A stretch of 64,000 nt of DNA, taken from contig JAGGXZ010000081.1 of NCBI GenBank assembly GCA_021162805.1, forward strand, positions 1 through 64,000, written 5' to 3'. Both the position numbers and the translations under genes were made by a program. The stretch comes from Candidatus Poribacteria bacterium. GTDB lineage: Bacteria > Poribacteria > WGA-4E > B28-G17. Position 1 is the stretch's first letter. Each line of letters begins with the position of its first letter. Shown here one piece after another: positions 7,403 through 53,861 of the stretch. The notes under the pieces were generated by a model. The model did no database searches, had not been told where the DNA came from, and saw only the letters and a list, made by a program, of their open reading frames with translations.

Positions 7403-7443
7403 AATGACGGCGAAGCCAAATGACCTAATGACCACAAATGACC
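7403..7443. repeat. Dispersed GTCATT-type repeat, copy 1
   Basis: About 41 bases starting AATGACGGCG recur with few changes at 39299-39339. The 189-base gap that holds it also has an inverted pair GTCCGCAGT and ACTGCGGAC. Both copies sit immediately before a gene start. Confidence 0.55.
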
Positions 7444-7472
7444 GTTGATCTAATTCCAATAAGGGGTGTTAT

Positions 7473-8483: not shown

Positions 8484-8526
8484 TTAAGCGCGGGCGATAT
8501 GAGATCGCAATGAGGAGGAGGTAGAA

Positions 8527-10140
8527 ATGCCTGAGGGAAGAAGACCGAACATCCTTTGGATCTCCTTTGAGGACACAAACCCCTTTTATGGATGTTATGG
8601 CGATCTTGTTGCCCGGACGCCCAACTTGGACCGCCTGGCATCTGAGGGATGTCTTTACACCCATGCGTTCTCTACGGCTGGGGTATGTGCTCCGGCCCGA
8701 TCGGCCATCATCACCGGCATGTATCCCATCTCGATCGGCACACACCACATGCGTACCACCCATACCAATCCGTTCACGCCTGAGATACCCACCCCCTATT
8801 CCGCCGTGGTGCCCCATTACGTCCGATGTTTCACCGAATATCTCCGGGCGGCGGGCTACTATTGCACGAACAACGTTAAAACGGACTATCAGTTCGATCC
8901 ACCATTCACAGCATGGGATGAGCTGAGCAGGGAGGCCCATTGGCGTAACCGTCCTGATCCCGATCAGCCCTTCTTCGCCGTCTTCAACCTCACCCGTACT
9001 CATGAAAGCGGGATGTGGCCTGAGAAGTGCCCTCAGATCACATTTGATCCCGATGAGATGGAGGTGCCGCCCTATTATCCCGACACGCCTAAGGTGCGCG
9101 AGGCGCTGGCGCGGATGTATACGAACATCGAATACAACGACCGAATCCTAGGAGAGCTTCTGCGACAGCTGGAGGAGAACGGTCTGGCTGAGAACACGGT
9201 GGTCTTCCACTGGTCCGATCACGGGCCGCTGCCCCGGGGCAAGAGATGGCCCTACGATGCGGGGATCCACGTGCCTCTGATCGTCCGCTGGCCCGGCGTG
9301 ATCGAGCCGGGAGGCGTCAGCGACCGGCTGATAAGCACCATAGACCTCGGCCCCACGGTTCTCTCCATAGCCGGCGTGGAGATCCCATACCACATGCAGG
9401 GACGAGCCTTCCTCGGGGAACAGGCCGCTCCGCCCAGAAAATACGTCTACGCCACCCGCGACCGATATGACGAGTCCTACGATATGGTCCGTGCCGTCCG
9501 GGACAAGCGATTCAAATACATCCGTAATTACCGGCCCGATCTGCCATATCTGCTCTGGATACCCTATCGTAACCGTCATCCCATCCTGCAGGAGATGTGG
9601 CGTCTATATCTGGAGGGGAAATTGGAAGGACCTCAGCTGCTGATGTTCCGATCGCGGCGTCCTGTTGAGGAGCTATATGACACGCAGAGCGATCCCTACG
9701 AGATAAACAACCTTGCCTACGATCCGGAATACAGGCCGGTTTTGGAGAGGATGCGCAGGGCATTGGATGAGTGGCTTGAGGAAGTCGGCGATATGGGACA
9801 TATCTCCGAGGAGGAGATGGTACGACGCTGGTATCCCGAGGGCAGACAGCCTCAGACCGCTCCTCCGCTTTTCATCCCGATCTGTGAGGAGAATCCGGGT
9901 CTGGAGCCTGCTCCGAAGGGAGGCGCATTTACCGCGCCGGTGTTGCTGCAGATCCACTGTGCCACTCAGGGAGCTTCCATCGGTTATACCTTTGAGGATG
10001 GCGAGAGGCCTCACTGGAGGCTCTATACCGAACCGATACGCCTGCCGATAGGGGAAACGAGGATAAGGGCGAAGGCGATCAGAATAGGTTACAGGGAAAG
10101 CGAGGAAAGCGTGGCGAACTTCAAGATCACCCGCAAGTAG
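8527..10140 (+). CDS. Sulfatase with C-terminal chitobiase-type domain
   Basis: The 537-residue enzyme carries the CxPxR sulfatase motif at Cys54 (VCAPARSAIITG); this Cys is converted to formylglycine by maturases. Metal-binding segments (WISFEDTNPFYG near the start, HWSDHGPLPRGK mid-protein) are present. The last 80 residues look like a CHB_HEX_C_1 beta-sandwich (PVLLQIHCATQGASIGYTF). No signal peptide is visible, so it may act in the cytosol or rely on an unseen signal. A GAGGAGGAGG ribosome site precedes the ATG. It hydrolyses sulfate esters, probably of polysaccharides. Confidence 0.88.
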   Translation: MPEGRRPNILWISFEDTNPFYGCYGDLVARTPNLDRLASEGCLYTHAFSTAGVCAPARSAIITGMYPISIGTHHMRTTHTNPFTPEIPTPYSAVVPHYVRCFTEYLRAAGYYCTNNVKTDYQFDPPFTAWDELSREAHWRNRPDPDQPFFAVFNLTRTHESGMWPEKCPQITFDPDEMEVPPYYPDTPKVREALARMYTNIEYNDRILGELLRQLEENGLAENTVVFHWSDHGPLPRGKRWPYDAGIHVPLIVRWPGVIEPGGVSDRLISTIDLGPTVLSIAGVEIPYHMQGRAFLGEQAAPPRKYVYATRDRYDESYDMVRAVRDKRFKYIRNYRPDLPYLLWIPYRNRHPILQEMWRLYLEGKLEGPQLLMFRSRRPVEELYDTQSDPYEINNLAYDPEYRPVLERMRRALDEWLEEVGDMGHISEEEMVRRWYPEGRQPQTAPPLFIPICEENPGLEPAPKGGAFTAPVLLQIHCATQGASIGYTFEDGERPHWRLYTEPIRLPIGETRIRAKAIRIGYRESEESVANFKITRK

Positions 10141-10173
10141 GGGCGAGGCATTCAAAACTAAATGCCTCGTCCC
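10141..10173. terminator. Palindrome GGGCGAGGCATT, copy 1
   Basis: GGGCGAGGCATT pairs with AATGCCTCGTCCC across an eight-base loop, directly after the sulfatase stop and facing the convergent thioredoxin gene. There is no T-tract. The same stem recurs at 37916-37950, so it is both a probable bidirectional terminator and a dispersed palindromic repeat. Confidence 0.65.
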
Positions 10174-10185
10174 TACCACGGGAAA

Positions 10186-10521
10186 TCACGCTTTCTCATC
10201 CTTTGAGATCAGCCTCTCAAGCTCGCTGCTGTATTCCGCTTCCGAGCGGACACCGACCAGTTTTCGGACGGCTTCCCCCTTGTGGAAGATGATCACCGTC
10301 GGTATGGCTCGAATTCCATATCTGTAGGCGAGCGATAGGTTCTCATCGACGTTGACTTTGCCTACCTTAACCTTCCCCTCATACTTCTCGGCGATTCTCT
10401 CCACTATCGGAGCTAGCATCAGACACGGGCCACACCAGGATGCCCAGAAATCGACCAAAACGGGCTTATCGGATGAGAGGACCTCGTTCTGAAAGTTTTT
10501 CTCGTTCAGCTCTATCTCCAT
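10186..10521 (-). CDS. trxA: Thioredoxin
   Basis: A 111-residue thioredoxin with the redox motif WCGPC ([14 protein letters not shown]), the cis-proline segment RAIPTVIIF and the [12 protein letters not shown] helix. It reduces protein disulfides in the cytosol. The ATG at 10521 is chosen because GAGAGGAGG precedes it; an upstream in-frame start would add 13 residues unlike the family. It lies behind a DUF6132-like membrane protein and a sigma-54 promoter. Confidence 0.95.
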
Positions 10522-10537
10522 ATCCGAACACCTCCTC

Positions 10538-10708
10538 TCACATGGTTGCGACCAACACACCCATGGCCGCGCCGTAGATTATGGCGCCATAGGGATTACA
10601 GAGGAAGATGCAATATCCCTTGGATTCGCTATATCTCGTGTAGATCCTATTCATAGCGAATCCCAGAGCTCCTCCCACGATTGCTCCTATCACCGCCTTC
10701 AAGATCAA
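10538..10708 (-). CDS. DUF6132-like small membrane protein, 56 residues
   Basis: Translation from a TTG six bases after GAGGTG gives two glycine-rich hydrophobic helices ([14 protein letters not shown] and [17 protein letters not shown]) joined by a loop with Cys33 and Cys37 and an NPYGA motif. The pattern resembles DUF6132 proteins, which have paired cysteines before an NPY segment. The stop is 16 bases before the trxA start, so the cysteine pair might be a thioredoxin partner (inference). Many annotation pipelines would miss it. Confidence 0.68.
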
Positions 10709-10744
10709 TCGTATCACCTCGGTTCATATTGATGAGGATTTATA

Positions 10745-10760
10745 AGCAAGACACGTGCCA
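10745..10760 (-). promoter_or_regulatory. Sigma-54 (-24/-12) promoter
   Basis: Read on the minus strand the site is TGGCACG, four bases, TTGCT, matching the consensus TGGCACG-N4-TTGCW exactly. The predicted transcript start is about 25 bases before the TTG of the DUF6132-like gene, so it would drive that gene and trxA. Confidence 0.85.
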
Positions 10761-10862
10761 TCTCGCCATCAGCAGCGGATCCCCCGCCACGAAAGATGAA
10801 TCCCAACGGGAGAAATCGGGAGATTTCGTCGCGCAACGAAGCTGTTGTGCAACGTTTGTGTT

Positions 10863-11714
10863 TCACGAAACAGAGATGATCATGTTATCTATGAGACGGG
10901 TGGTTCCGATGAAGACGGCCAAAGCCACCAGAACCTCTCCTTCTATCCTATCCACCTTCTCCAACGTCTCGGAGTCCACTATCTCGACGTAATCTATCTT
11001 AGCGAGCGGTTCAGATTCGATTAACCTACGCATCTCAGATATAATCCGATCGGCCTTTCTCTCGCCCGCCTCCGCGAGGCTTCGGGCCAAGTTTAGGGAT
11101 CTCCAAAGGACAAGGGCTGCTTTTCTCTCCTCAGGGGAAAGATACTCGTTCCTCGAGCTCATGGCCAGTCCGTCCGATTCTCTGACCGTGGGGACGGAGA
11201 TGATCTCGACGTCGAAGTTCAGATCCTTCGCCATGCGTTTGATCACCCTGAGCTGTTGGGCGTCCTTCTCGCCGAAATAGGCCCTATGTGGTTTGACTAT
11301 GTTGAAAAGCTTGGCGACTACGGTCGTGACGCCGCGGAAATGTCCGGGACGCCTGGCGCCGCAGAGCACCGATGTTAACGTTCCCGTCACCTCGACATAT
11401 GTGGCGTATCCGGCCGGATACATATCCTCGACCGATGGGACGAAGAGGAGATCGACGCCTTCCTTCTCGGCAAGTTCCCTGTCCCTATCGAGGTCTCGGG
11501 GATACCTCTCGTAATCCTCGTTCGGCCCGAACTGGGTGGGGTTAACGAAAAGGCTGACGACGAGGAGGTCGTTCTCCTCCCTTGCCCTGCGCATCAGCGT
11601 CAGGTGTCCCTCATGGAAATACCCCATGGTGGGGACGAATCCGATCCTCTTGCCCTGAAGACGCACCCTCTCGCAATGCCTCTGCACCTCCTCAGGCTTA
11701 CTCAGAACCATCAT
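10863..11714 (-). CDS. panC: Pantoate--beta-alanine ligase
   Basis: The 283-residue enzyme joins pantoate and beta-alanine with ATP to form pantothenate, the precursor of coenzyme A. The adenylyl-transferase signature [13 protein letters not shown] lies at residues 28-40, the [17 protein letters not shown] segment near 60, and KMSSRN-type [12 protein letters not shown] later (here [14 protein letters not shown]). Its ATG overlaps the preceding gene's stop by four bases. No other pantothenate genes are nearby, and pairing with an FAD/Fe-S oxidoreductase is unusual. Confidence 0.96.
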
Positions 11715-14554
11715 GGTTTCACCTCATATGACCTGAATAAAACCTCTATGGGGTGTATCGTTTTCAATCCTGTGGCCTGTTCTATCTGTAACCTGCAGGT
11801 TCCACAGCTCGATATGACGATCTCAGCACCGCTGGAGAGGATCTGCCGGAAAAGCGGTTCCCCGGCCTTCAGCGACAGGTCGTAATACTGCTTTTTCATT
11901 CCGAACGTCCCCGCTATCCCACAACATCTATCAGCCACGGTTGTAATCTCCAGTCCCGGTATCCGTCTCAAAATCACCAACGTTCTGTCCTCACCGAGCG
12001 CCTTGAGATGACACGGTATCTGATATGCCGCCTTCATATCGACCGGATTAAGCTCCTCCACCAGCTCGCCTCTTTCCTTCAGATCGAACAGGAACTCGAA
12101 TATGTAATGACAGTGCTCCGCCAGCCTTTTGGATCTTTCATCGTCCAATATCTCCGGATACTCCATCCTCACCGCCAGGAGGCAGCTCGGAGCGCTGAAG
12201 AGTATCTCGAATCCCTCATCGACCAGTTGGGAGAGGATGTCCACGTTCTCACGGATATCGTCCATTGACTCCTCTATACCGCCCATCGTGATCTTAGCCA
12301 CATTACAGCATTTGGTCTTCGGGATGTAAACCTCATACCCATGTCTGCGCAGCACCTCAACCGTCGATACCCCTTCGCCGGCCGGATCGTTGTAGTTGGC
12401 GTAACACCCGGCGAAATAGGCCACCTTTTTCTCCCCCGTCGGTTTTCGCCTCGGATATCTCCTGGAAAGGGTCATGAACCTGTACCTGGGCATCCTCCTA
12501 TCCCTGTGTATCCCGAGGATCAACTCCATCAGCCATCTGATCGGTTTGAGTTGCATCGTCAGATTGGCCAAAGGGGCGAAAGTAGTGGCGAGCGGAGCGA
12601 TTTTCGAGGCGTTGCCCAGGAATAGATTCTGAATCGAGAGGCCGTGTTCGCGCACATATACGGCCCTCGCCTCAAGACAAAGCATTGGGACGTTAACCAA
12701 CGCCGGGCATTCGTTCAGACATCGCTTACAGTTATAACATAGATCCATCACCGATTTGAACTCGGTTGAGGTCAGCATCTCAGGGGGAAGATCGCCTGTA
12801 AGAGCGGCCCTGATGAGATTCACCTTGGCGCGGCTGGCTCCTCTCTCCTCTCCCAGGGCACCGAACACCGGGCAATACGACCGACATGTGCCGCAGCCGT
12901 CGCATTTCTCCAGTTCCTCGTGCATCCTCTCCCGATCAAGCCTCGATCCGGTCTGTATATATCGATATTCCGGCCCGTAACGGAGGTTATCGGTGAATCC
13001 CTTGCCTTCCTGAGGGATGATCTTGCCGGGATTGAGCAGGTTGAGCGGATCGAACAGGCGTTTGACCTGGAAGAACAGATCGTAAAGCTCGCCGAACTCC
13101 TTCCTGAGGAAGGGCGTTCTCAGCAATCCGTCGCCGTGTTCGCCCGAAATCGACCCCTCCATCTCCACCACCAGCGAGAAGGTTTCCTCCGCTATCAGCC
13201 GCATCTTCTCGATATCCGATGGGTCCTTGGGATTTAACAGGGGTCTGACGTGAAAGTTGCTATCTCCGGCATGCCCTATCGTACCTACGCGAACGTCATA
13301 TCTCTTCAGTATCCCCCAGAGCTTACCGAGGAACTCGGCCAATCTTTCGGGAGGAACCGACACGTCCTCGATGAAGCGCAGCGGTCGTTTCTCTCCCTTT
13401 ACCCTTCCCAAGATAGCGGAACCGGCCTTTCGGACCCTCCAGAGCTTATCGGCCTCATCCTGATCACGGGCGGGCAGGAAATCGGTGACCAGCCCTTCCT
13501 CTCTCAGAGATCGCTCCGCCTCTTTGAGCTTTTGACGAACCCGATCTGAATCCTCACCGTCGAACTCTATCAGATATACCATCTCAACCTTTTCAGGTAG
13601 GAATCGTCCCAGCTCCCTTTCCCTCATGCGTACCAGATCCACAACCAACCCATCCATCACATCTATCGCGCTAGGGCCTAGTTCCAGCAGAATCGGCACG
13701 GCCATTCCGGCCTTAACGACATCGTCGAAATATGCCATCGCCACAGCCTTGTGCTTCGGGAGATCGATGACGCGCAATCTAGCCTCCGTTACGATGCATA
13801 ACGTTCCCTCAGATCCGACGATCAGCTTCGACAGGTCGAACATCCTATTCTGAATCAGGTCGAATAGGTTATATCCGCTTGAGCTTTTGGCCTTAGGCCG
13901 ATACCTCTCGATGAGATCCCTGTTTTCAATGGTGATACTTTTAAGTCCCTCATAGATCTCCTGTTCAAGCGAGCCGGGCCTGCCGGGAAAATCATCGGGT
14001 ATAAGCTCCAGGGGAACGGGTTTGGTTTTCACCAGATCTCCGTCTGAGAGCACCAGCTCAAGCGATAGGACGTAATCCTTCGTGGTCCCATATTTGACGG
14101 ATCTTGCGCCGGAGGAGTTGTTGGCGATTCCACCTCCGATGGTGCTATAGGCGCTGCTTGAGGTATCGGGGGGGAAGAACTTGCCATACCTTTTAAGCTC
14201 CCTCTGTAGGATATCCTGGACGACCCCGGGCTGAACGACGGCATATCCATCATCGGGATTGATCTCGATTATACGGTTCATGTATTTGCTCAGATCGACG
14301 ATCAGGCCGTCATTCACCGCCTGACCGGCAAGGCTGGAACCGGCTCCCCTTGCCGTAAGGGATATCCTTTGATCGGATGCGTATTCGGCCAGTTTAACCA
14401 GATCGTCGGCGTTTTTCGGATATATCACCCCGATCGGCTTGATCTTATAAAGACAAGCGGCGGTGCTGTAGATCGTCCGGGTTATCTCATCGAACCTAAC
14501 GTCACCGCTTATGAGCGTTTTCAGATGTCTTTCAACTCTATCGGGATCAATCAT
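11711..14554 (-). CDS. FAD-linked oxidase fused to Fe-S/CCG oxidoreductase (GlcD-GlpC type)
   Basis: A 947-residue fusion. Residues about 35-200 are the FAD-binding PCMH domain ([19 protein letters not shown]), 220-490 the FAD-oxidase C domain with HAGDSNFH, and 540-640 hold two 4Fe-4S sites ([12 protein letters not shown] and [12 protein letters not shown]). Two CCG domains follow (KTKCCN and [11 protein letters not shown]). Such fusions oxidise D-lactate, glycolate or other 2-hydroxy acids and pass electrons to the quinone pool at the membrane. The substrate is not determined. GGAGATGAAAG precedes the ATG. Confidence 0.9.
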
Positions 14555-42939: not shown

Positions 42940-44484
42940 GTGCTTCTCACGCTGATACGTAAGGAGTTTCTCCTTAACATCATGACGGCGAGATTTTTGG
43001 TCGCCGTGATCCTCTGTGAGGCGCTCATCATATCGAGCGTCTTCATCCTGAGGGGGAACACGCTCCAGCGCCAGAGCCGATACGTCAAAAACCTCCAGAG
43101 CCACAATGAGACGTTGGAGGGGATCAAGGTCTTCTCACAATTGAGGCCGATAATCGACCGTCCTCCTTCGCCGCTGGGGTTTATGTGCATCGGAGTTGAG
43201 GGGGAGGTGGGCGATGCGGCGATGATCTCATACGACGATGTCCCCCACGAGCTTCTCTCCTTACAGGGTGGTGACAACCCATTGCTCGCCGTTTTCTCGC
43301 CGATTGATATCGCGCGTGTGATACAGGTGGTTTTGAGCCTGCTGGCCGTGCTGCTCGTTTACGATTCGATCTCAGGGGAGCGTGAGAGAGGGACCCTCTC
43401 GCTCTCCCTTTCAAACCCGATTCCTAGGGGAACGCTGATGCTGGGAAAATACCTGGGTGGAATGGCCACCTTGACGGCATCGCTGCTCTTCGGGCTGCTT
43501 TCCGGATTGCTGATCGTCCTCCTTCTTCCCTCGGTTCCCTTAAACGGGGAGGACTGGGTACGTATCGGTCTGATCTTCATCTCCTCCCTGCTTTATCTCT
43601 CCTTCTGGGTAACGCTAGGGCTTTTCATCTCAGCTCGATCCTCACGCTCATCAACTTCGCTGATGGTCTCCCTCTTTCTATGGTTGACGCTCGTGGTTCT
43701 GCTTCCGGACGGGATGATGTATCTGGCGGGACAGCTTCGTCCGATCCAGGATCGTTCGACGGTGGATGCGAAGGTCGAGGCGCTCAACAGGGAGATGTGG
43801 AAGGTGATATGGGACGAGGCAGGAAAATACAGGAGACCTAAGGATCTATGGAGGTTCATGAAGGGTTCGATCTGGTCGGGCGATCTGCCTTACGCACTGG
43901 AGATACGGTATGCGCCTCGTGAGAACCTGATCTGGTATCTTGAAGGGATCGGGTTCATCATGCCCCTTAAACTCAGATATGCCCGGAGGAAATGGGAGAT
44001 CTACGTGGATTACGAGAGGAAGCTCAAACGACAGAGATCTTTATCCGACGCGCTGGCATCCCTCTCCCCGGGATGGCTGTTTTACAGGATATCGGAGATA
44101 TTCTCCGGAACCGATCCCGACCTTCGCTCCCGGTTCATGGAGCAGGCGAGGAGATATAGGGAGGAGATAATCGAGTATGCGAGGCGAAACGGAGGGCTCA
44201 CGACGCTCAAGTTTTTCACGAGGATGAACCTGGATGAAGCCCCCACATACGACCAGCTTGTGGAGATGGAGGGGAGGTTGGGTCGCAAAACCCTGGAGGA
44301 GTATCTGAGCCGGTGGTGGAGGGAAGCTCAACCTTTAAGGGATATACCGAGGTTCGTCTACAGGCGGGAGAGGTTGAGCGATGCGGTGATTCGGGCATCG
44401 CATGGGATGATGATCCTGGCCCTGTTAAACCTCCTGTTCTTCTTATCGGGATTCGTCACCTTCGTCAGAAGGCCGGTTAGATAA
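42940..44484 (+). CDS. ABC-2/DUF3526-type permease A1
   Basis: A 514-residue membrane protein. It has an N-terminal helix (about 15-37), an extracytoplasmic loop with LGGDNPLL-type residues (here LQGGDNPLL), then several helices around the motif SGERERGTLSLSLSNP, a large domain and a final helix. ABC-2 permeases of this kind pair with an ATPase for export. Type A has the opening IRKEFLLNIMTARF. The partner B1 is ruined downstream. GTG start after GAGAGG. Confidence 0.8.
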   Translation: MLLTLIRKEFLLNIMTARFLVAVILCEALIISSVFILRGNTLQRQSRYVKNLQSHNETLEGIKVFSQLRPIIDRPPSPLGFMCIGVEGEVGDAAMISYDDVPHELLSLQGGDNPLLAVFSPIDIARVIQVVLSLLAVLLVYDSISGERERGTLSLSLSNPIPRGTLMLGKYLGGMATLTASLLFGLLSGLLIVLLLPSVPLNGEDWVRIGLIFISSLLYLSFWVTLGLFISARSSRSSTSLMVSLFLWLTLVVLLPDGMMYLAGQLRPIQDRSTVDAKVEALNREMWKVIWDEAGKYRRPKDLWRFMKGSIWSGDLPYALEIRYAPRENLIWYLEGIGFIMPLKLRYARRKWEIYVDYERKLKRQRSLSDALASLSPGWLFYRISEIFSGTDPDLRSRFMEQARRYREEIIEYARRNGGLTTLKFFTRMNLDEAPTYDQLVEMEGRLGRKTLEEYLSRWWREAQPLRDIPRFVYRRERLSDAVIRASHGMMILALLNLLFFLSGFVTFVRRPVR

Positions 44485-44746
44485 GGGTGGAAAGATGTGC
44501 ACGTAGAAGCTCATTTACCAGATGGCTAAGCGTGGTTCCCTTACGGATCGCCTGAGCTTGAAGTTTGAGGGCGATCTCCTCATCGAGCTCCACTTCGTAA
44601 CGTCTGCCTTTGAATTCGGTAATGGCATCAACCGTTTGAAATTCGTCAAGATAATCCGTCGTATCATGGGTATCCCAGAACTCGGCCGCCTCTTCATAAT
44701 CGCTAAATTCCTCTGGGATTGGGTCAATGTGTTTTTCTTTGTTCAT
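44477..44746 (-). CDS. CopG-family antitoxin (BrnA-like)
   Basis: An 89-residue protein with the EEAAEFWDTHDTTDYLDEF motif of the CopG antitoxin family and a C-terminal ribbon-helix-helix (DEEIALKLQAQAIRKGTTLSHLVNELLR). It would bind the toxin and its own promoter. It overlaps the toxin gene by 23 bases and the end of permease A1 by eight. Confidence 0.85.
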   Translation of the reverse strand: MNKEKHIDPIPEEFSDYEEAAEFWDTHDTTDYLDEFQTVDAITEFKGRRYEVELDEEIALKLQAQAIRKGTTLSHLVNELLRAHLSTLI

Positions 44747-45020
44747 TGTAATACCTCCGCTCAGATGGAGTCATATCACGAGCTGTAATAGGCAAAGCAG
44801 AAGTTGAACGTTTACGGACGAAAAAGACCACTAAATATCTGCCAGCTCTCGTCTGACCGTAAGCCACATATAGATCTTCTCCCTTAATTCGCCCTTTCTC
44901 TGCTCGGCGAATTAAGGGATTTGTAAACAAAACATCTTCGACCTCATCGGTCGTTATGTTATGTTTTTCGGAGATTTTATTAACAAACTTATCTTTCCAG
45001 ATAACTTCATATAATCGCAA
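44724..45020 (-). CDS. BrnT-family toxin
   Basis: A 98-residue BrnT/DUF497-like ribonuclease toxin: ITTDEVEDVLFTNPLIRR, YGQTRAGRYLVVFF and ARDMTPSERRYY are the family motifs. The TTG start is eight bases after AAGG. It precedes its antitoxin, the usual BrnT-BrnA order. The module sits between permease A1 and the damaged B1. Confidence 0.85.
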   Translation of the reverse strand: MRLYEVIWKDKFVNKISEKHNITTDEVEDVLFTNPLIRRAEKGRIKGEDLYVAYGQTRAGRYLVVFFVRKRSTSALPITARDMTPSERRYYNEQRKTH

Positions 45021-45114: not shown

Positions 45115-45905
45115 ATGATAAGGATGATATGGATGCGTGAGTTTTTCGACCATCTCCATTCCCTTAGGTTTGCCCTCGTGATGGTCGTGATGACGGCGGC
45201 AATGGCAGGGGGTACCCTGCATCCCTGGTTGACGAGCCGTCCACCGGTCTGATGATCCTCCTTCTGGTATGGGCTATTTCGAGCATACTGCTTCCCAACA
45301 CGGGAGGGGTGTTGGCAAGCGGGCTGTCCCCTCTTCCGAGCCCGGAGAAGGTGAGTGATGAGATGCGGACCGCTTATGAACGTGCCAAGGGGGAGTATGA
45401 ATCGCAACATCCCGATGTGGCGGGCACACCGCTCAGCGGGAGATGGTCCCCCAGGGAATCCCTCGGCAGGGCATTAGCTCTCGCTGAGGCGATATACGAG
45501 GTTTACAACAGATATTGGGACGATCAGGTGAGACAGGTGGAACCTGCTCGTCGGCTGATCTCGGTCTCACCCACAGCGCTTTACATGATCTCCATTGAGG
45601 AACTCGCGTGGACGGGGGTAGTTCACTATGAAAGCTTCCTCGATGGCGTCCGAGATTATCGGAGGAATCTGAGGGAGACGCTTTTAGCTCTCTATCCCTT
45701 TAACCCTGACTCCTTTATCGAGGATTGGAATAAGATGAGACCCCTGATCCAAAGGGTGGTGGATTACGGTTCCATACCGAAGTTCGAGGACAAACTGCCG
45801 GAGATCAGTGAGATCCTGGACGGGGTAATGATCAGGATGTCCGTTCTGCTCCTTTTAAACGGGCTTTTCTTCATGCTGAGCTTCTGCTTCTTCAGGAGGA
45901 TCTAA
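45115..45905 (+). pseudogene. Type B ABC-2 permease with internal deletion (B1)
   Basis: The first part (45115-45252) has the type B start REFFDHLHSLRFALVMVV and then a TGA. The second frame (45252-45905) continues with LLVWAISSILLPNTGGVLASG and the C-terminal domain, very like the intact paralogue at 58435. About 215 residues, including four helices and the SGERERGTL motif, are missing and the frames differ. It lies behind the BrnT module and before sigma factor 1. Confidence 0.8.
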
Positions 45906-45979: not shown

Positions 45980-46576
45980 GTGTCCCATCAACCTTCGGAC
46001 GAGGAACTGATGTCTCAGCTCAAAAAGGGGAAAGTGGAGGCGTTTGATATGCTCTTCGCCAGATATCGAAAGCCGCTTTTCAGCTTCATCCTCAGGATGC
46101 TGGGCGATTTCCACAGGGCGCAGGATATATTCCAGGAGACCTTCCTCCGCGTTTTCCGTCACGCTCAGAGGTTCGACGAGTCGCTCAGCTTCTCCCCATG
46201 GCTTTACCGGATCGCCCGCAACCTCTGCCTGGAGGAGATCCGCAGACGGGAGAGGGTCGAGACCATCCCCATAGATGAGAGGGCGGAACTTCAACCGAAG
46301 GAGCTGTGGGAGGGCAGGACGCCGGATGAGGAGCTGGTGAGGAGGGAGATGAGACGAGTTTTGGAGGGAGCTATCCTTCGCCTTACGTGGAAACAGCGAG
46401 AGGTGTTCCTGCTTCGTGAGATTCAGGGGCTCTCCTACGAGGAGATAGGGCAGGTTACAGGGATGTCCGTCCCTGCGGTAAAATCGTGTCTTCATCGGGC
46501 ACGGATGGCTTTGAAGGAGATGCTTACCCCCTACCTGAAATCCGGCGAAATGCCGATAGGGAGGATGAAGCGATGA
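45980..46576 (+). CDS. ECF sigma factor 1
   Basis: A 198-residue sigma-70-family ECF protein. Region 2 is visible as AQDIFQETFLRVFRHAQRF and region 4 as LTWKQREVFLLREIQGLSYEEIGQVTGMSVPAVKSCLHRAR. It directs RNA polymerase to a dedicated regulon. GTG start after GAGGG. It overlaps the anti-sigma gene by four bases, and its position suggests it drives the peptide cluster just downstream. Confidence 0.92.
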   Translation: MSHQPSDEELMSQLKKGKVEAFDMLFARYRKPLFSFILRMLGDFHRAQDIFQETFLRVFRHAQRFDESLSFSPWLYRIARNLCLEEIRRRERVETIPIDERAELQPKELWEGRTPDEELVRREMRRVLEGAILRLTWKQREVFLLREIQGLSYEEIGQVTGMSVPAVKSCLHRARMALKEMLTPYLKSGEMPIGRMKR

Positions 46577-46980
46577 GATGCGAAAGATGCAGAAAGCTAC
46601 TATCGTGGTATCTTGAGTCGGATTTGCCATCAGGGGAGATGAGGGAGATCGAGGAACACCTTTCGACCTGTAAGGAGTGCTCGGGGGAGCTTAAACTGCT
46701 CGAGGAGACGCTGGCGTTGGCAAGGGAATTGCCTCAGCTTGAGCCGCCGGAGGAAACCTGCCTACAACTGCTGGAGAAGGTCAGGGCGATAGCGAAGTTT
46801 GAGAAAGTCATATACATCTGGAGGGAGATGCAAAGCGGAGGAAAAGCAGAAGTTTTCTTCTCTAAGAGGCTGTTGCCGGTAGACCGAGAAGTTGGAAGGA
46901 ATTTCCAATACCAGGCCCGGATTGTGAGGAGATTGGATGGAACGTGGTGGAAATTTGCAAGGATAAGTTTTCTTGGCTGA
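46573..46980 (+). CDS. Zinc-finger (HC2-type) anti-sigma factor 1
   Basis: A 135-residue protein with the zinc-binding pattern CERCRKLL and HLSTCKECSGEL that anti-sigma factors use to hold ECF factors. No membrane helix is evident, and the C-terminal 55 residues look atypical, so a shifted or truncated C-terminus is possible. ATGA overlap with the sigma gene. Confidence 0.75.
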   Translation: MRCERCRKLLSWYLESDLPSGEMREIEEHLSTCKECSGELKLLEETLALARELPQLEPPEETCLQLLEKVRAIAKFEKVIYIWREMQSGGKAEVFFSKRLLPVDREVGRNFQYQARIVRRLDGTWWKFARISFLG

Positions 46981-47008
46981 CTGACAAATTTTAACAGCTT
47001 TATCGGAA

Positions 47009-47036
47009 AAACCCTTGGAGATCCTGGACTCGTTGA
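47009..47036 (+). promoter_or_regulatory. Possible ECF promoter before the peptide genes
   Basis: AAACCC, 16 bases, CGTTGA. The geometry matches the two sites ahead of the ECF genes, but similarity is weak. Confidence 0.25.
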
Positions 47037-47079
47037 AGTTCCGAAAACTTGAACAATTGGAGGCAAGGAGGTAAGAAAG

Positions 47080-47283
47080 ATGAAGACATATGAAAAACCG
47101 CGGGTAATGGAAACTATACCTGCCGAACAGATATTGATAAATGAGGAAAGTCAAAGTCCGGAATGGCGTGATTGGTCTAATTGGCCTAACTGGTCTAATT
47201 GGCCTAATTGGTCCAATTGGAGCAATACAGAATCGGTTTTGCAACCAGGGATAGAAATCCCTGAAGGAGGTGAAGGGGAATGA
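47080..47283 (+). CDS. RiPP precursor peptide 1 with Trp-X-Asn repeats
   Basis: A 67-residue peptide. Residues 1-28 form a leader (KTYEKPRVMETIPAEQIL) shared with the peptide at 47629. The core has seven Trp at positions 29, 32, 35, 38, 41, 44 and 47, giving WRD and then six WxN units (x is Ser or Pro). A Gly/Glu tail follows. Radical SAM triceptide enzymes link an aromatic ring to the beta carbon of the third residue of such Omega-X-X motifs. AAGGAGG precedes the ATG, and the stop overlaps the PqqD-like gene (ATGA). Confidence 0.8.
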   Translation: MKTYEKPRVMETIPAEQILINEESQSPEWRDWSNWPNWSNWPNWSNWSNTESVLQPGIEIPEGGEGE

Positions 47284-47570
47284 TTCAGAAACCCGGGATG
47301 TATCCGTGGATAGATGTGAAGGAATTGGGAGAGGAAGCTCAGGGAGAAGCGATAATATACAACTATGCCAGAGGTGAAGTTCACAGGATAAACGCCACCG
47401 CTCTAGAGGTGCTTAAGATGTGCGATGGGAAACATACTGCTGAGGAGATAGCCGGAAAGCTAGCGGAGATCTATGATGTCGATCTTGATATCGCTAAGGA
47501 AGATGTCAGGGAACTGATCAATAGGTTCGCCGAGTTAGAGCTTGTTCAGGAGGGTGAGTTTCCCGGATAA
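47280..47570 (+). CDS. PqqD-like RiPP recognition protein
   Basis: A 96-residue PqqD-family protein: INATALEVLKMCDGKHTAEEIAGKLAEIYDVD and DVRELINRFAELELVQEG give the winged-helix recognition fold. Such proteins bind the leader peptide and deliver it to the radical SAM enzyme. It is coupled to precursor 1 and followed by a terminator hairpin. Confidence 0.88.
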   Translation: MIQKPGMYPWIDVKELGEEAQGEAIIYNYARGEVHRINATALEVLKMCDGKHTAEEIAGKLAEIYDVDLDIAKEDVRELINRFAELELVQEGEFPG

Positions 47571-47577
47571 AACGATC

Positions 47578-47611
47578 AGCTAGGGCCTCAATATCCGGGG
47601 CCCTAGCTTTG
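47578..47611 (+). terminator. Intrinsic terminator or attenuator between PqqD and precursor 2
   Basis: AGCTAGGGCC and GGCCCTAGCT form a perfect 10-base-pair stem with an 11-base loop, followed by TTTG. It could set the ratio of precursor 1 to later gene products. Confidence 0.7.
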
Positions 47612-47628
47612 CATAAGGAGGTAACAGG

Positions 47629-47814
47629 ATGGAAAAGGCGTATGAGAAACCTCAGATATTGGAGACCATGCCCATCGAGCAGGTGTTGAGAGGCGAGATG
47701 GGCGAGGGGATCGCTCCAGAGTGGGTGAATTGGAACCAGAGTTGGAATAACAGTTGGCTAAACACAGGAGTAGTTCCACAGCCAGAAGGGGAAACTTCTG
47801 TACTGTCAAATTAA
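47629..47814 (+). CDS. RiPP precursor peptide 2
   Basis: A 61-residue peptide with leader KAYEKPQILETMPIEQVL matching precursor 1. The core EWVNWNQSWNNSWLNT has Trp at 32, 35, 39 and 43, so WVN, WNQ, WNN and WLN triads with slightly wider spacing. A short Pro/Glu/Ser tail ends it. AAGGAGG precedes the ATG. It lies between a terminator and the glycosyltransferase gene. Confidence 0.78.
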   Translation: MEKAYEKPQILETMPIEQVLRGEMGEGIAPEWVNWNQSWNNSWLNTGVVPQPEGETSVLSN

Positions 47815-47933
47815 TAATGAAAAACCTCGTTGAAACCCAGTAGATATAAGGGTTCTTAGGAGGGGGAAGTTTCATCATCTTCTCTCTGCTTATTTCCGGC
47901 GTTTCAGCCGATGGAGTTTGACAATACCGGAAA

Positions 47934-47946
47934 CCTCCAAAGGAGG
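47934..47946 (+). promoter_or_regulatory. Small hairpin covering the glycosyltransferase ribosome site
   Basis: CCTCC, AAA, GGAGG: the right arm is the Shine-Dalgarno sequence for the gene at 47954, so translation may be partly masked. The 139-base gap also has TTTCCGG/CCGGAAA arms. Confidence 0.35.
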
Positions 47947-47953
47947 GGAATGA

Positions 47954-49498
47954 ATGAAGGTAGCGCTAGTCGGCCCAAATCCTAACCGATTGGAAGATTT
48001 TCCTGTTCTTAAAAGTATCCAGCGAGTATTCGAAAACTTATTGCTCTCATTAGAATCGGAAGCTGAAGTGGTAAAAGGGTGGGAGAACGAATCTGATCTC
48101 TTTCGGGTAGATGCGATCGTTGGGTCATATGAGGCTTTAAGAATTCGACATAACCTTCACCTTGATATCCCCGTTTTGATTTTCACTTTTGGAGACATGC
48201 CTAATGGAGGATTGATGCTACTTGCCTACCATGGCCTGCTCAGACCTTACGATTGTTTGGCTTTCTCATGCTCTTCCGATCTCATTATATTCGATAGATT
48301 GGTCAAGCAGCGTGATCTGATGACAGAAGTGATCCCGTTCCCCGTAAATTGCGATGTTTTTAGCAGGAGATCGGTTAACCGTGAATCGATAAGGAGAAAA
48401 TATGGGATCTCTGAGAAGGGTAAACTGCTGTTCTATGCTGGGCGGGTAAGCCTGCAGAAAAACTTATATGTGCTGATAAGGATATTCGAGGAGGTGACGA
48501 AGGAGAGAGAAGCCGTCTTGTGCATCGCCGGTGCTCCAGATCAAACCCCGTTGAAGGAGTTCGGAGTTTGCGGGTGGGGATACGCTCACAAGTTAAAAGA
48601 GGCTGTGCGAAAGAGAGGTTTAGCGGATAAAGTGATATTCGTTGGCTATCTCGATGACAACGCTTTAGTGGAGCTATATTCTGCATCGGATCTGTTTATC
48701 AACCCAACTCTTCATCATGATGAGAACTTTGGGTTTTCCCAGGTCGAAGCTCAATCGTGTGGTTTACCGGTCGTTGCTTCAAAGTGGGGAGGTATCAAAG
48801 ATACAGTGCTTCATGGGGAAACAGGATTTCTTATGGAGACGATCCTAACCGATAACGGACCGAGGTTAGAATGGCGCTCTGGAGTCAAATATATCTTAAA
48901 CTTGCTCTCTGATGATGACATATTGTGGAGGAGAATGTCCGATAGGTGCAGAACCCACGTTTTATCAACCTTTAGCATAAAAGCTGTTGGGAAGAGGATA
49001 AAGTCAACCCTGGAGGAGATGATCTCCATCAAAAGAAAGGTGAGGCCAACTGCTTCCCCTGTTGTGAGGATAAAAGACGAAATAAAGAGTTACATAATCG
49101 GCTCTATAAAACTAAGCGAAGAAGGGAAGCTTAGGTATCATAACCTACCTGTAGCTGGTTCCAAGGAGGCAAGGTGGTTTTATAAAATCCGGATGGAACC
49201 GTATTCGTCCACGATGCTTTCGAAAATAGAGGACATAGATGAGACAGTCAGGCCGTATAAAGCGATCGATTTGGAAGTTGATGTGGATAAGGGAATTATA
49301 AAACTGTTAGATCTCATGTGGCCCGGAGAGATTCGGCTTGATCCTAGTTCCCTCACCTTCCTACTTTTATCCAACGGAGAAAGATGCGTGGCTGAAATAT
49401 GTGATAGGGCGGGTATCTCAAGGGAAAGCGGTATTAGGATTTTCCGGGGGCTTATTAGGAAAGGCCTGATCCTCTATATGAAAGAAGGAGGTGGATAG
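47954..49498 (+). CDS. GT4-type glycosyltransferase with PqqD-like C-terminus
   Basis: A 514-residue protein. Residues 1-365 are a GT-B glycosyltransferase; GKLLFYAGRVSLQKN opens the donor-binding half and ENFGFSQVEAQSCGLPVVAS is the EX7E motif. After a linker, residues 430-510 (LTFLLLSNGERCVAEICDRAGISRESGIRIF) look like a PqqD-type winged helix. A leader-binding domain on a transferase suggests it glycosylates the peptide, but the sugar and site are unknown. The start overlaps none; the end overlaps the radical SAM ribosome site. Confidence 0.78.
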   Translation: MKVALVGPNPNRLEDFPVLKSIQRVFENLLLSLESEAEVVKGWENESDLFRVDAIVGSYEALRIRHNLHLDIPVLIFTFGDMPNGGLMLLAYHGLLRPYDCLAFSCSSDLIIFDRLVKQRDLMTEVIPFPVNCDVFSRRSVNRESIRRKYGISEKGKLLFYAGRVSLQKNLYVLIRIFEEVTKEREAVLCIAGAPDQTPLKEFGVCGWGYAHKLKEAVRKRGLADKVIFVGYLDDNALVELYSASDLFINPTLHHDENFGFSQVEAQSCGLPVVASKWGGIKDTVLHGETGFLMETILTDNGPRLEWRSGVKYILNLLSDDDILWRRMSDRCRTHVLSTFSIKAVGKRIKSTLEEMISIKRKVRPTASPVVRIKDEIKSYIIGSIKLSEEGKLRYHNLPVAGSKEARWFYKIRMEPYSSTMLSKIEDIDETVRPYKAIDLEVDVDKGIIKLLDLMWPGEIRLDPSSLTFLLLSNGERCVAEICDRAGISRESGIRIFRGLIRKGLILYMKEGGG

Positions 49499-49499
49499 G

Positions 49500-50915
49500 A
49501 TGTACTCTATCTTTAACCCCGAGCTGCTTCCTCGGTTTTCACTGGAAGAAGATATCAGGGTGGTTCGCTTCAATGACAGATATATCGCTATATCCCCTGA
49601 CACCGGGGGATGGATCGTTTTGGATACACCGGAGCTTTACAAGGTATTTTCGCTTCCGCTAACTTGGGAAATCGGCAGCGAGCTCTATATAAGAGGGATA
49701 GCAAGAAGAAACGGAGTTCCAATCTACACCCCTCCTAACCCGTCTGAGCTTAAGAGGATGACATACTTTGAGTTTCAACTGACCAATGGGTGTAACCTAA
49801 GGTGTGATTACTGCAATGTTGACGCTAAACCTTTAAATGAAGCAAATAAGGCCTCTTTCGATGTAGCGGAGAAGCTCATAGATAGGATCATAGAATATTG
49901 CTTGAACAACGCCATATTCAGAGTTACGGTGCAGTTCAGTGGTGGTGAACCTTTCACCAATTTCGACGTAATGGAACATACATGTTATTACGTTTCTGAA
50001 AGGTTAAAGGGGGAGAAGTTCCCAAAAAAACTGGATTTTCAAGTTCAAACAAATCTTGCCTTTCACCTCGAAGAGAAATGGTTAGAGTTCGTTAAGAAAT
50101 TTCAAATTGGACTGGGAGTCAGCTTAGATGGACCCAAGAAATATCATGACACTCACAGGAAATTCCCGGATGGAAGAGGAAGCTGGGATCTGATTATGAA
50201 GAATCTGGCCAAGTTGAGGGAAGAGGGGATACCATTCGGTGTAATAAGCGTTATAACTCCTGAAAGTGTCTCCGGGATGAAACAGATCGCTGAATTCTTT
50301 TTAAAAATCGGGATAACCGGATTCGTATTAACGCCGCTCCTCCCGGCGGGAAGAGGCTCCAAGATACATGCTTTGGCACCAAGGGAATATACCCACAGGC
50401 TTTTTGAAGTATTCGATGAAGTTCTCATCCCTTATTACAAAGCGACAGGTGAAATGCCACGAGAAAGAGAGTTAGGATTAGCCCTTTTGAATTTCATTCA
50501 GCCGTCAAGACACTATATGTGTTGGAGAACTCCATGTGGGGCAGGGACAAATATATGTGCTGTAACACCCTCTGGAGATGTGTTTCCTTGTGGTTACTGG
50601 GTTAACGAACCAAAGTTTAAAATGGGGAATATCTACTATAACAGCTTCGATGAGATGATATCTGGTAAGGTTGCTTCAACTTTGAGGGGAAGAGAGATCA
50701 GATCGCTGGAGGGGTGTTCGGATTGCCTCTATAGAGCTTGGTGCCAATCACGATGTCCTTTCAGCTCATATCTCCGCTATGGGGATATATTCAAGCCATC
50801 AGGATATTGTGAAATAATGAAAGAATTATTTTCGGAACTCCTGGAAAGGGTGGCCTCCGGCGGTTTAGACGAGCAATCCGTTTATGCACTAGCGCGGAAA
50901 GTGTTGTATTTATGA
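49500..50915 (+). CDS. Radical SAM/SPASM peptide maturase
   Basis: A 471-residue enzyme. Residues 1-85 may be a recognition domain (LPRFSLEEDIRVVRFNDRY). The cluster motif is NGCNLRCDYCNVD, with SGGEPF after it. SPASM cysteines follow in CGAGTNICAVTPSGDVFPCGYW and CSDCLYRAWCQSRC. This architecture is that of cyclophane-, sactipeptide- or similar RiPP maturases; WxN cores favour three-residue cyclophanes (inference). The ATG at 49500 follows GGAGGTG; an in-frame GTG nine bases earlier overlaps that site. Confidence 0.85.
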   Translation: MYSIFNPELLPRFSLEEDIRVVRFNDRYIAISPDTGGWIVLDTPELYKVFSLPLTWEIGSELYIRGIARRNGVPIYTPPNPSELKRMTYFEFQLTNGCNLRCDYCNVDAKPLNEANKASFDVAEKLIDRIIEYCLNNAIFRVTVQFSGGEPFTNFDVMEHTCYYVSERLKGEKFPKKLDFQVQTNLAFHLEEKWLEFVKKFQIGLGVSLDGPKKYHDTHRKFPDGRGSWDLIMKNLAKLREEGIPFGVISVITPESVSGMKQIAEFFLKIGITGFVLTPLLPAGRGSKIHALAPREYTHRLFEVFDEVLIPYYKATGEMPRERELGLALLNFIQPSRHYMCWRTPCGAGTNICAVTPSGDVFPCGYWVNEPKFKMGNIYYNSFDEMISGKVASTLRGREIRSLEGCSDCLYRAWCQSRCPFSSYLRYGDIFKPSGYCEIMKELFSELLERVASGGLDEQSVYALARKVLYL

Positions 50916-50931
50916 TGAGGAAAGAGAAGAA

Positions 50932-52416
50932 ATGATGCTTGGGACGATAGTGGCAAAGGAGTTCCTGTCGAACATCTTGACCTTCCGCTTCTCGATAGGC
51001 TTCCTCGTCTGTCTCCTGCTGATCGTGGCAAGCAGTTATGTTTTGACGCAGGATTACGCCGACAGGTTGGAGAGCTATCGGACGGCGATTCGGGAATATG
51101 AAGAGGAGATGTCGAAGATAAAGGTGTATTCGGAGCTCTGCGGCGACCATAAGCCGAAGGCTTTCAGGAAACCTAAACCCTTGAGCGTTTTCAATCAAGG
51201 GGTGGATAAGCGCTTGGGAAATGTCGTTGAGGCTTCAGTCGGTACCGTCCCGATGAGGGCAAAGGAATACAGCCCTGCCAACCCATACATGAGCGTCTTC
51301 CCATCGGTGGATCTTGCGTTAGTCTTCCAGGTCGTTTTGAGCTTGTTGGCCTTGCTTTTCGCCTACGATGCGATCTCCGGCGAGCGAGAAGACGGCACGT
51401 TGTGTCTGATGCTGTCCAACGACGTTCCTAGAGATACGGTTTTACTCGGCAAGTATTTGGGTGGGATGGTCAGTCTATTGCTGCCGCTGATGGTGAGCCT
51501 ACTCGGAGGCTTGCTGGTTATGCAGCTTTCACCGGGGATATCGCTGAAAGGAGCCGATTGGGCGCGTATCGGTTTGATCTTTCTGGTTTCTCTCCTTTAT
51601 CTCTCCCTCTTTTATCTTCTGGGGCTTCTCCTTTCAATCCGGACACATCGCTCAAGCACTGCCCTGATGTTCGCCATGTTCCTCTGGGTCACCCTTGTTC
51701 TGATTTTCCCAAGCGCCACCGTTTTCCTGGTGGATAAACTCGCCCCCATTCGCTCTGAGGAGACGGTCGCCTCAGCTACGTCGGAGATCTGGAAGGAGTT
51801 TAACTCGAAATCGGATGAGTTCCTGAAGAAGTTGGGGTTAAAATCCCCTTTCGAGATGGCTAACGCCGGCTCGACCGTCAGTTCCAGATCGGACAGCTTC
51901 ACCTGGGGAGAAACCGTAAAGGCGTACGGTTTCAGATCGGAGGAGGGGGTCAGGTTAGCCCAGGAGTTTTATGGATTCAAATGCAGACTGGCAGTTGAGT
52001 ATGCGGATAAGGTCTGGCAGGTTTACAGGAAGTATCTGGACGAAAACCCAATCCGTCAGGCAAGATTGGCTTTGAACATCTCCCGCATCTCGCCCGCTGC
52101 GGCATATTACAACGCCACGGCTGTGCTTTCGGAAACCGACCTCGGAAACTTTTTGAATTTCATGGCCCAGGCCAGAATGTATCGGGATCAAATCGTCCAA
52201 TATCTTACCGATAAAAAGGCATTCTCCTCTCGCCAATGGTTCGCCGATGACAAGGGTGTGGCCGACATAACCGACCTACCCAGGTTCAGCGAACGACGCG
52301 AGGGAATAGGTGACAGCTTAAAACGAGCGGGCGTCGATATCCTACTTCTGGTCATCCTGAACTTCCTCCTCTTCCTCGGAGGATATGCCTCCTTTTTGAG
52401 GTGTGACGTTAGATGA
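50932..52416 (+). CDS. ABC-2/DUF3526-type permease A2
   Basis: A 494-residue type A permease: opening MLGTIVAKEFLSNILTFRF, helix near 20-40, extracytoplasmic part, helices around SGEREDGTLCLMLSNDVP and a final helix. It begins 16 bases after the radical SAM stop, so it probably belongs to the peptide operon and would export the product with B2. No ATPase gene is adjacent. Confidence 0.8.
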   Translation: MMLGTIVAKEFLSNILTFRFSIGFLVCLLLIVASSYVLTQDYADRLESYRTAIREYEEEMSKIKVYSELCGDHKPKAFRKPKPLSVFNQGVDKRLGNVVEASVGTVPMRAKEYSPANPYMSVFPSVDLALVFQVVLSLLALLFAYDAISGEREDGTLCLMLSNDVPRDTVLLGKYLGGMVSLLLPLMVSLLGGLLVMQLSPGISLKGADWARIGLIFLVSLLYLSLFYLLGLLLSIRTHRSSTALMFAMFLWVTLVLIFPSATVFLVDKLAPIRSEETVASATSEIWKEFNSKSDEFLKKLGLKSPFEMANAGSTVSSRSDSFTWGETVKAYGFRSEEGVRLAQEFYGFKCRLAVEYADKVWQVYRKYLDENPIRQARLALNISRISPAAAYYNATAVLSETDLGNFLNFMAQARMYRDQIVQYLTDKKAFSSRQWFADDKGVADITDLPRFSERREGIGDSLKRAGVDILLLVILNFLLFLGGYASFLRCDVR

Positions 52417-53861
52417 TCAGGGAGATTATCAAAAGGGAGCTTTTGGATTACATACTCAGTCTCAGGTTTTCGCTCTCTCTCGGTTTGGTTTTGATGTTGA
52501 TGGTGGCGAACGCCCTCGTTTTCATCAAGGACTATGATGACCGTCTGAGGGAATATTCAAACGACGTCAGTAACTCCTTGGAAAGGTTGAAGGAGAAAGC
52601 GGGGAACCTGAGCGACCTCGCGATAGAAGGTCCTGGAGGGTTATACAAGTTCCCAAGCCATCTGGCTTTTTGTGCTAAGGGCGGTGACGATCTTCTGCCG
52701 AAGAAGGTGGAGGGAAGTTCAGGCGGCAGTTACGGCGTCGGCTACAATAAATTCCGCTATTTCTGGAAATCGCTGTGGCGGCTCTCCTATCCGCCGGTCA
52801 GATATCGAAGGAACAACTACCTTCCCGATTTCACCGAGCTGGACTGGAGCTTCATCGTCGGAGTGGTGATGAGTTTCGTAGCGATTTTGTTCACCTTCGA
52901 CTCCATATCCGGGGAACGTGAGAGAGGGACATTACAACTTGTGTTTTCCAATCCCGTATCGCGAGGAGCTGTGTTGCTGGGCAAGCTGTTTGGAGCGTTG
53001 GCCGGGATTTTGATTCCACTGGCTTTTGGCATCTTCGTCAACCTCCTGATTATCAACCTCTCCGGGGACGTTCAGCTTGAAGGGAATGATTGGGTTAGAA
53101 TCGGCGTGATAATAGCTTTGTCGGTTGTTTATCTCACCGGATTCCTTTGTCTGGGACTTGTGGTATCCACCTGCTCCTCCCGTTCATCAACCAGCTTGGT
53201 GACACTGCTTTTAGTGTGGGTGATCCTCGTGGTGTTGTCCCCAAACACGCTCGGATCGATAGCTGGTCGTTGGGGACGCTCTTGGACAAGCAGTGAGTTC
53301 TCACGCAGATTGAAATCAGCTCAACAGGAGGTCAAATCGAGGTATCCTGATGAGAAGCTTTATGCAGCATCGCCTTCGGAAAAACCGCCGAAGATCGAAG
53401 CGATCCGGCTTTGGGCGAGGTATCTGGTGGAATGGAGAGAAGCTGAAAGCAGGGTGGAGGATGAGCATCTAAAGCGTCAGTTCAAACAGGTGGAAAGAGC
53501 GTTTCAAATAACAAGGCTTTCCCCTACCGCTATCTTTCAATATGCATTACAGGCCGTGGCCGGGACGGGATTTGTCCGCCATAAACATTTCATCGCTCAA
53601 GCGAAGCGATATAAAGAGATATTTGAGGAATTCATCAGATCGGAGGACAGAAAAGACCCAAACAGCCTACACATCTGGCTCATAAAGGAAGGGTTATCTC
53701 AGAGGCCCGTCCATCCCGAAGGCATACCGAAGTTCGTCGAGCGATATACACTGACGGATGCAATTCAAAGGGGAATTCTGGACATCGGTCTTTTAGCCTT
53801 ATTCTGTCTGTTCCTTTTCATGGGGGCGTTTCTCTCTTTTCTGAGGGCGCATCTGAAGTGA
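52413..53861 (+). CDS. ABC-2/DUF3526-type permease B2
   Basis: A 482-residue type B permease: opening MIREIIKRELLDYILSLRFSL, helices around SGERERGTLQLVFSNPVSRG, cytoplasmic/extracytoplasmic domain and final helix. ATGA overlap with A2 implies a heterodimer. The TumE toxin gene follows convergently. Confidence 0.8.
   Translation: MIREIIKRELLDYILSLRFSLSLGLVLMLMVANALVFIKDYDDRLREYSNDVSNSLERLKEKAGNLSDLAIEGPGGLYKFPSHLAFCAKGGDDLLPKKVEGSSGGSYGVGYNKFRYFWKSLWRLSYPPVRYRRNNYLPDFTELDWSFIVGVVMSFVAILFTFDSISGERERGTLQLVFSNPVSRGAVLLGKLFGALAGILIPLAFGIFVNLLIINLSGDVQLEGNDWVRIGVIIALSVVYLTGFLCLGLVVSTCSSRSSTSLVTLLLVWVILVVLSPNTLGSIAGRWGRSWTSSEFSRRLKSAQQEVKSRYPDEKLYAASPSEKPPKIEAIRLWARYLVEWREAESRVEDEHLKRQFKQVERAFQITRLSPTAIFQYALQAVAGTGFVRHKHFIAQAKRYKEIFEEFIRSEDRKDPNSLHIWLIKEGLSQRPVHPEGIPKFVERYTLTDAIQRGILDIGLLALFCLFLFMGAFLSFLRAHLK

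Follow-up and report, generated by a model that had tools for sequence, protein, structure and literature searches.

Trp-X-Asn is an experimentally established motif of cyclophane-forming radical S-adenosylmethionine (SAM)/SPASM enzymes, with Trp-Asn linked by XncB and Trp-Asn or Trp-Asp by OscB (PMC11002830). In pathways to ribosomally synthesized and post-translationally modified peptides (RiPPs), discrete RiPP recognition elements (RREs) bind the leader motif YxxP, for which pull-down assays, mutants and structures provide the evidence (PMC13381572); the leaders of FusE, McjB, PqqD and StsC have a W/Y/LxxP-type motif in common (PMC12710340). Mycofactocin is a radical-SAM RiPP glycosylated by MftF from its own cluster (PMC7491314), and fusions of an RRE to a glycosyltransferase (GT) have already been predicted by RRE-Finder (PMC7470986; PMC12710340). 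Here, we describe a locus in a 64,000-nt window of a Candidatus Poribacteria genome (contig JAGGXZ010000081.1, forward strand; all coordinates are positions in this window unless another locus is named), in which precursor 1, a PqqD-like protein, precursor 2, a GT of family GT4 and a radical SAM/SPASM maturase are encoded by an intact five-gene core at 47080-50915. We regard it as very probable that this locus is a RiPP cassette. The chemistry is of a known kind, of which the maturase, the precursors and the GT are new variants, and Trp-X-Asn cyclophanes of the triceptide type are our best guess for the product.

Results

The two precursors are siblings (47% identity over the alignment) with a common leader pattern, YEKP-x-x-x-ET-x-P-x-EQ-x-L, and a common tail after the core, NTxxVxQP. 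The core of precursor 1 opens with WRD and continues with six spacer-free W-x-N triplets; its coding DNA is an imperfect 18-nt repeat. An earlier note on this DNA had proposed tandem Trp-X-Asn precursors with a common leader, and both features exceed chance: the leader-leader alignment scores 71, whereas none of 20,000 shuffles exceeded 47, and the count of W-x-N/D motifs in precursor 1 (seven) is the highest among the 3,692 open reading frames (ORFs) scanned. All 11 core Trp residues have N, D or Q at +2 (7/7 in precursor 1 and 4/4 in precursor 2), in keeping with the triceptide pattern of an aromatic-X-X motif with Asn, Asp or the like in third place, and none has such a residue at +3 (0/11). 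In permutation tests of the +2 position, precursor 1 was equalled in 0 of 200,000 permutations, a value inflated by its tandem repeat, and precursor 2 gave p=0.003. Cys is absent from both peptides and His and Lys are absent from both cores, which excludes several other SPASM chemistries; the thioether chemistry of sactipeptides and ranthipeptides was rejected for want of Cys. Small precursors with a conserved leader, a variable core and an adjoining maturase are what is expected of an RRE-dependent RiPP.

The YEKP motif fits YxxP and is a predicted RRE-binding site. The gene that starts within the stop of precursor 1, described earlier as a free-standing PqqD-like gene, clearly encodes an RRE (PqqD-like) protein (56 bits against a PF05402 cut-off of 23). 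Its closest NCBIfam models are PqqD and lasso RRE families (best, lasso-peptide PqqD), all below cut-off, and it has weak matches to PqqD 5sxy, TfuB1 6jx3 and TbiB1 5v1u. The PF05402 fold family and the YxxP leader are shared with the discrete RREs of lasso and LPP pathways (PMC13381572), but no lasso cyclase or transglutaminase-like peptidase adjoins the PqqD gene in the window cassette. No further YxKP leader came up when the paralogous loci were scanned for the motif; the leader of a lasso-like precursor candidate in another genome of the phylum (G069; L068 10199-10348) reads YEAP. Separately, a conserved PqqD-like protein of ~150 aa (LYxLxLKKRPD...VWQLCDG) occurs in nearly every genome of the phylum, mostly in single copy (loci L092, L095, L097, L099, L100, L102, L104-L106 and L109).

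The maturase, which the earlier note had read as a radical SAM/SPASM enzyme, has the complete iron-sulphur ligand sets of one, with CX3CX2C at residues 98-105 and the full seven-Cys SPASM pattern at residues 346-437. Judged by sequence comparison, it is an orphan that fits no named cyclophane-forming family. Its best NCBIfam scores (maturase bits/model cut-off bits) are for HxsB (TIGR03978; 176/370), PapB (163/340), CbpB (150/375) and DynA (145/450), compared with 105/310 for GrrM/OscB, 93/445 for YhhB and 77/370 for FxsB, and XyeB is not within its best 25 models. The closest solved sequence is 5wgg. Across 85 genomes of the phylum, nothing is closer to it than a paralogue from its own genome (32% identity); plasmid relatives have 22-29% identity among the matches listed, and a collection scan returned distant clostridial enzymes only (25-27%). 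Because the maturase lies outside the named cyclophane families, 'triceptide' is here a prediction and not a membership: of the triceptide-type enzyme suggested earlier, the Trp-X-Asn substrate motif holds and the family assignment does not. The likeness to the triceptide enzymes XncB, OscB, MscB and YhhB (PMC11002830) lies in the SPASM domain, the small precursor and the aromatic-X-Asn/Asp motif; unlike them, the window maturase scores below the named-family cut-offs and shares its cassette with a discrete YxxP-type RRE and a GT.

These scores also bear on a tentative alternative, in which a RiPP cassette performs a different, new SPASM reaction on the W-x-N repeat, for example a Trp-Asn i/i+3 bond, hydroxylation, dehydrogenation or epimerisation. 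The orphan maturase scores closer to HxsB, PapB, CbpB and DynA than to GrrM/OscB and FxsB, and dynobactin, with its Trp(i)-Asn(i+3) bond, is a precedent for the wider spacing (PMC11002830), but the N/D/Q partners of the core Trp residues all stand at +2, and PapB-like thioether chemistry would lack its Cys. We consider such a reaction possible and give it clearly less credence than i/i+2 cross-linking. HxsB is the top-scoring curated family, but the precursors have no His-Xaa-Ser repeats and no HxsC or HxsD adjoins; the Hxs system was rejected on the missing repeats, the single SPASM enzyme and the HxsB score. Mycofactocin was rejected as well: its precursor ends in Val-Tyr and its product is a cofactor rather than a multi-ring peptide, whereas the window precursors end in GEGE and VLSN and the window maturase scores 73/265 bits with the model of the mycofactocin enzyme. 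The mycofactocin GT presumably belongs to a different family than the GT of the window.

The GT domain of the cassette is intact, and this part of the earlier description, a GT-B protein ending in a PqqD-like domain, is secure; for the ending there is a weak profile match. When a PqqD profile was compared with 104 terminal segments of window ORFs and with 300 self-shuffles, the last ~90 residues of the GT scored 24.2, the best of the 104 and above the shuffle maximum of 21.2; as a positive comparison, a maturase with an N-terminal PqqD-like domain scored 34.6. Aligned with the tail of a paralogue from the same genome (contig C105), the GT tail matched the PqqD profile with P 5.5e-5. The tail had no Pfam match, and a profile comparison of five aligned GT tails with three PqqD proteins gave no match. 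We take the tail to be probably RRE-like. The second-best match in the same test was the N-terminus of the window maturase (17.2, not significant), whose first ~90 aa are possibly a degenerate RRE. AlphaFold2 models made without an alignment were unusable, with a mean pLDDT of 40 for the GT tail and 43 for the maturase. Predicted RRE-GT fusions (PMC7470986; PMC12710340) resemble this protein in that a GT carries a putative RRE-like domain and is encoded among RiPP genes, in some cases alongside a radical SAM enzyme; the window GT differs in being a GT4 (PF00534) with a weakly PqqD-like C-terminal tail, PF00535 being the family named in PMC12710340. A plasmid search with the GT found no record spanning 80% of it.

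Were the GT the main tailoring enzyme, the repeated Trp and Asn residues would be sugar acceptors and the change made by the radical enzyme would be minor. Mycofactocin sets a precedent for a glycosylated radical-SAM RiPP (PMC7491314). Overlapping W-x-x-W motifs occur six times and N-W-S three times in precursor 1, and precursor 2 has N-Q-S and N-N-S, but such counts are a trivial outcome of a Ser-rich, tiled W-x-N repeat. To our knowledge, GT4 is not a family of known Asn- or Trp-glycosylating enzymes, which also counts against this reading, and we find it improbable.

Relatives of the GT stand in RiPP loci of several kinds. At E<1e-25 in the genomes of the phylum, relatives were found in four other genomes, together with the own-genome paralogue on C105. 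In G069 the neighbours are PqqD, transglutaminase-like and Asn-synthase-like proteins, the make-up of a lasso cluster; in G053, PqqD and an Asn-synthase-like protein; in G077, a class III lanthipeptide synthetase (RamC_N, kinase, LanC); and in G066, a fragment that is similar, by eye, to the LanC end of the protein in G077. The C105 paralogue has an extracytoplasmic function (ECF) sigma pair and a SPASM enzyme as neighbours. Within the genome of the window, the four best GTs (window, C105, C51 and C15) are all near SPASM enzymes, and seven weaker ones (C35, C36, C6, C62, C115, C61 and C68) have no RiPP gene of the reference set in the fetched flanks; the difference, 4/4 against 0/7, has p = 1/330 (Fisher), with some flanks cut by contig ends and the score split made post hoc. 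The window GT family looks like a portable RiPP-tailoring enzyme.

Several of these loci have features of their own. The C105 locus (L054, G000:C105, 3161-8246) runs in one direction through an ECF pair, a SPASM enzyme, a GT whose fold lacks its N-terminal half and a DegP-like protease, a cassette of similar logic in which a precursor was not recognised. In G077 (L071, G077:C646, 3502-8690), candidate class III lanthipeptide precursors beginning MTRILALQ at 3502-3714 and 3856-3987 stand 5' of the RamC-type synthetase and the GT of the window family. On C51 (L055, G000:C51:3000-22000, 7439-12506), genes for three peptides, a TatA-like protein and a SPASM enzyme follow a GT4 gene; the SPASM enzyme carries a PqqD domain at its N-terminus and is closest to ScmF (288/400 bits). 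The peptides combine CN[TDSAQ]G-type repeats with a leader resembling a twin-arginine signal (RRDFLKKIPLFGAGLALGLSAL), and are perhaps RiPPs exported by the twin-arginine translocation (Tat) pathway. In a distant genome of the phylum (L072, G003:C246:30000-48000, 8302-10126), a Tat-signal-like peptide with Cys repeats (CTNHICSNQYSC...) adjoins a PapB-like SPASM enzyme (269/340 bits).

Every gene in the inventory of the earlier note is present, in the same direction and where it had been placed (Table 1). Both precursor genes, the GT gene and the maturase gene have clear Shine-Dalgarno sequences in front of them; for the maturase, ATG 49500 with its ribosome site is a better start than GTG 49491.

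Table 1 Features of the RiPP cassette and of the genes beside it
Feature	Position	Strand	Remarks
ECF sigma gene	45980-46576	+	upstream of cassette; link to cassette uncertain
zf-HC2 anti-sigma gene	46573-46980	+	upstream of cassette; link to cassette uncertain
Precursor peptide 1, 67 aa	47080-47283	+	YEKP leader, W-x-N core, strong ribosome site
Precursor 1 core, WRD-WSN-WPN-WSN-WPN-WSN-WSN	47164-47226	+	then tail NTESVLQP...
Discrete PqqD-like RRE protein, 96 aa	47280-47570	+	PF05402 E 4e-15
Precursor peptide 2, 61 aa	47629-47814	+	YEKP leader, strong ribosome site
Precursor 2 core, WVN-WNQ-S-WNN-S-WLN	47722-47763	+	then tail NTGVVPQP...
GT4 glycosyltransferase, 514 aa	47954-49498	+	PF00534 E 9e-32; EX7E at residues 257-265
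GT C-terminal winged-helix tail, probably RRE-like	49229-49495	+	PqqD profile comparison; no Pfam match
Radical SAM/SPASM maturase, 471 aa	49500-50915	+	PF04055 E 3e-19, PF13186 E 3e-9
ABC-2/DUF3526 permease, first of pair	50932-52416	+	downstream; probably surroundings, not cassette
ABC-2/DUF3526 permease, second of pair	52413-53861	+	downstream; probably surroundings, not cassette

The cassette is a composition island. The G+C content at third codon positions (GC3) is 0.37-0.57 within it (GT 0.48, maturase 0.45), compared with about 0.59-0.73 around it: 0.66-0.71 in the genes directly 5', and 0.66 and 0.59 in the permeases 3'. In the anti-sigma gene GC3 shifts midway, from 0.68 to 0.51. At least seven permeases or permease remnants of a single family lie in the window, and the rest of the genome has none; across the phylum this family is greatly expanded, with relatives in 59 of the 85 genomes. 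Orthologous permease pairs stand without RiPP genes in G061, G082 (54/51% identity) and G083 (53/48%). We therefore rejected the pair as a dedicated exporter, a transporter restricted to RiPP loci; its presence in the same direction, as noted earlier, stands, and the export role given to it does not. From the GC3 contrast and the spread of the permease family, the sigma, anti-sigma and permease genes appear to be the surroundings of an inserted cassette. The RiPP product could use a host transporter. Scans of the cassette edges for repeats gave nothing past chance-like pairs, a reservation on insertion, and promoter and terminator scans gave no excess over shuffles.

Positions 42940-64000 hold an array of ABC-2/DUF3526 permeases with ECF sigma/anti-sigma pairs and one ABC ATPase at 63335. 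A small gene pair on the minus strand at 44477-45020 resembles, by eye, BrnT/BrnA-type toxin-antitoxin genes and adjoins a truncated permease (45252-45905).

Discussion

With moderate confidence, we favour a reading of 47080-50915 as a horizontally acquired RiPP cassette for PqqD-presented, Trp(i)-(i+2) cross-linked and GT4-glycosylated peptides. The free-standing PqqD protein would bind the YEKP leader of both precursors and deliver them to the SPASM enzyme, which would link every Trp (i) of the cores with an Asn, Asp or Gln side chain at i+2. Peptide 1 would thereby gain as many as seven directly adjoining rings and peptide 2 as many as four, each ring costing two hydrogens. The GT4 enzyme, directed by its C-terminal winged-helix tail, would then add a sugar, and leader and tail would be cut off afterwards by an enzyme encoded outside the cassette. 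Taken by themselves, the Trp(i)-Asn(i+2) cross-linking by the maturase seems rather probable, and glycosylation of the same peptide we lean towards slightly. The earlier picture of a multi-ring, perhaps glycosylated and exported peptide is thus kept for the RiPP cassette itself and dropped for dedicated export, with the cyclophanes and the sugar as predictions.

Several observations weigh against this reading. The maturase falls far below the cut-offs of the cyclophane-forming families (GrrM/OscB, FxsB, YhhB, AmcB and XyeB), and spacer-free W-x-N tiling with Pro as a middle residue is not described for the triceptides of PMC11002830. The evidence for an RRE in the GT tail is suggestive, and the tails of the relatives in G066, G069 and G077 have no PqqD match. 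The precursor family has no other member in the 85 genomes, which leaves the cassette without a same-precursor relative, and no leader peptidase is encoded within 47080-53861. A nearby leader peptidase is not obligatory, and many RiPPs use a remote one. The earlier note had counted precursors missing from relatives that keep the maturase as a refuting observation; among the 85 genomes neither the precursors nor the maturase has a close relative on which that could be judged.

The lack of a peptidase, of a clearly dedicated exporter and of conservation in relatives, together with the decayed permease genes close by, would also suit an inactive pathway, that is, a degenerate or captured gene set, or a peptide that serves as a cofactor or maturation signal and is not secreted. 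Reading frames and catalytic motifs are all intact, however, the precursors lack a Val-Tyr end, the mycofactocin maturase model scores far below its cut-off, and two precursors with differing repeat numbers fit a cofactor poorly. This is the least probable of the readings considered. The boldest form of the cross-linking proposal, in which six or seven directly adjoining Trp-X-Asn cyclophanes are built into a rod by a new SPASM family and then glycosylated by a leader-guided GT4 of a tailoring family common to lasso, class III lanthipeptide and radical-SAM pathways, we hold to be doubtful.

If the cross-linked and glycosylated product is real, the cassette would extend the SPASM enzymes by an unassigned family whose substrates are fully tiled Trp-X-Asn cores. 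It would also raise the questions of whether adjacent strained rings form without spacer residues and whether a winged-helix tail steers a GT4 enzyme to RiPP precursors. That one GT family occurs in lasso, class III lanthipeptide and radical-SAM clusters within a single phylum suggests that glycosylation is an exchangeable step in RiPP tailoring, in an uncultured lineage whose natural products are little known.

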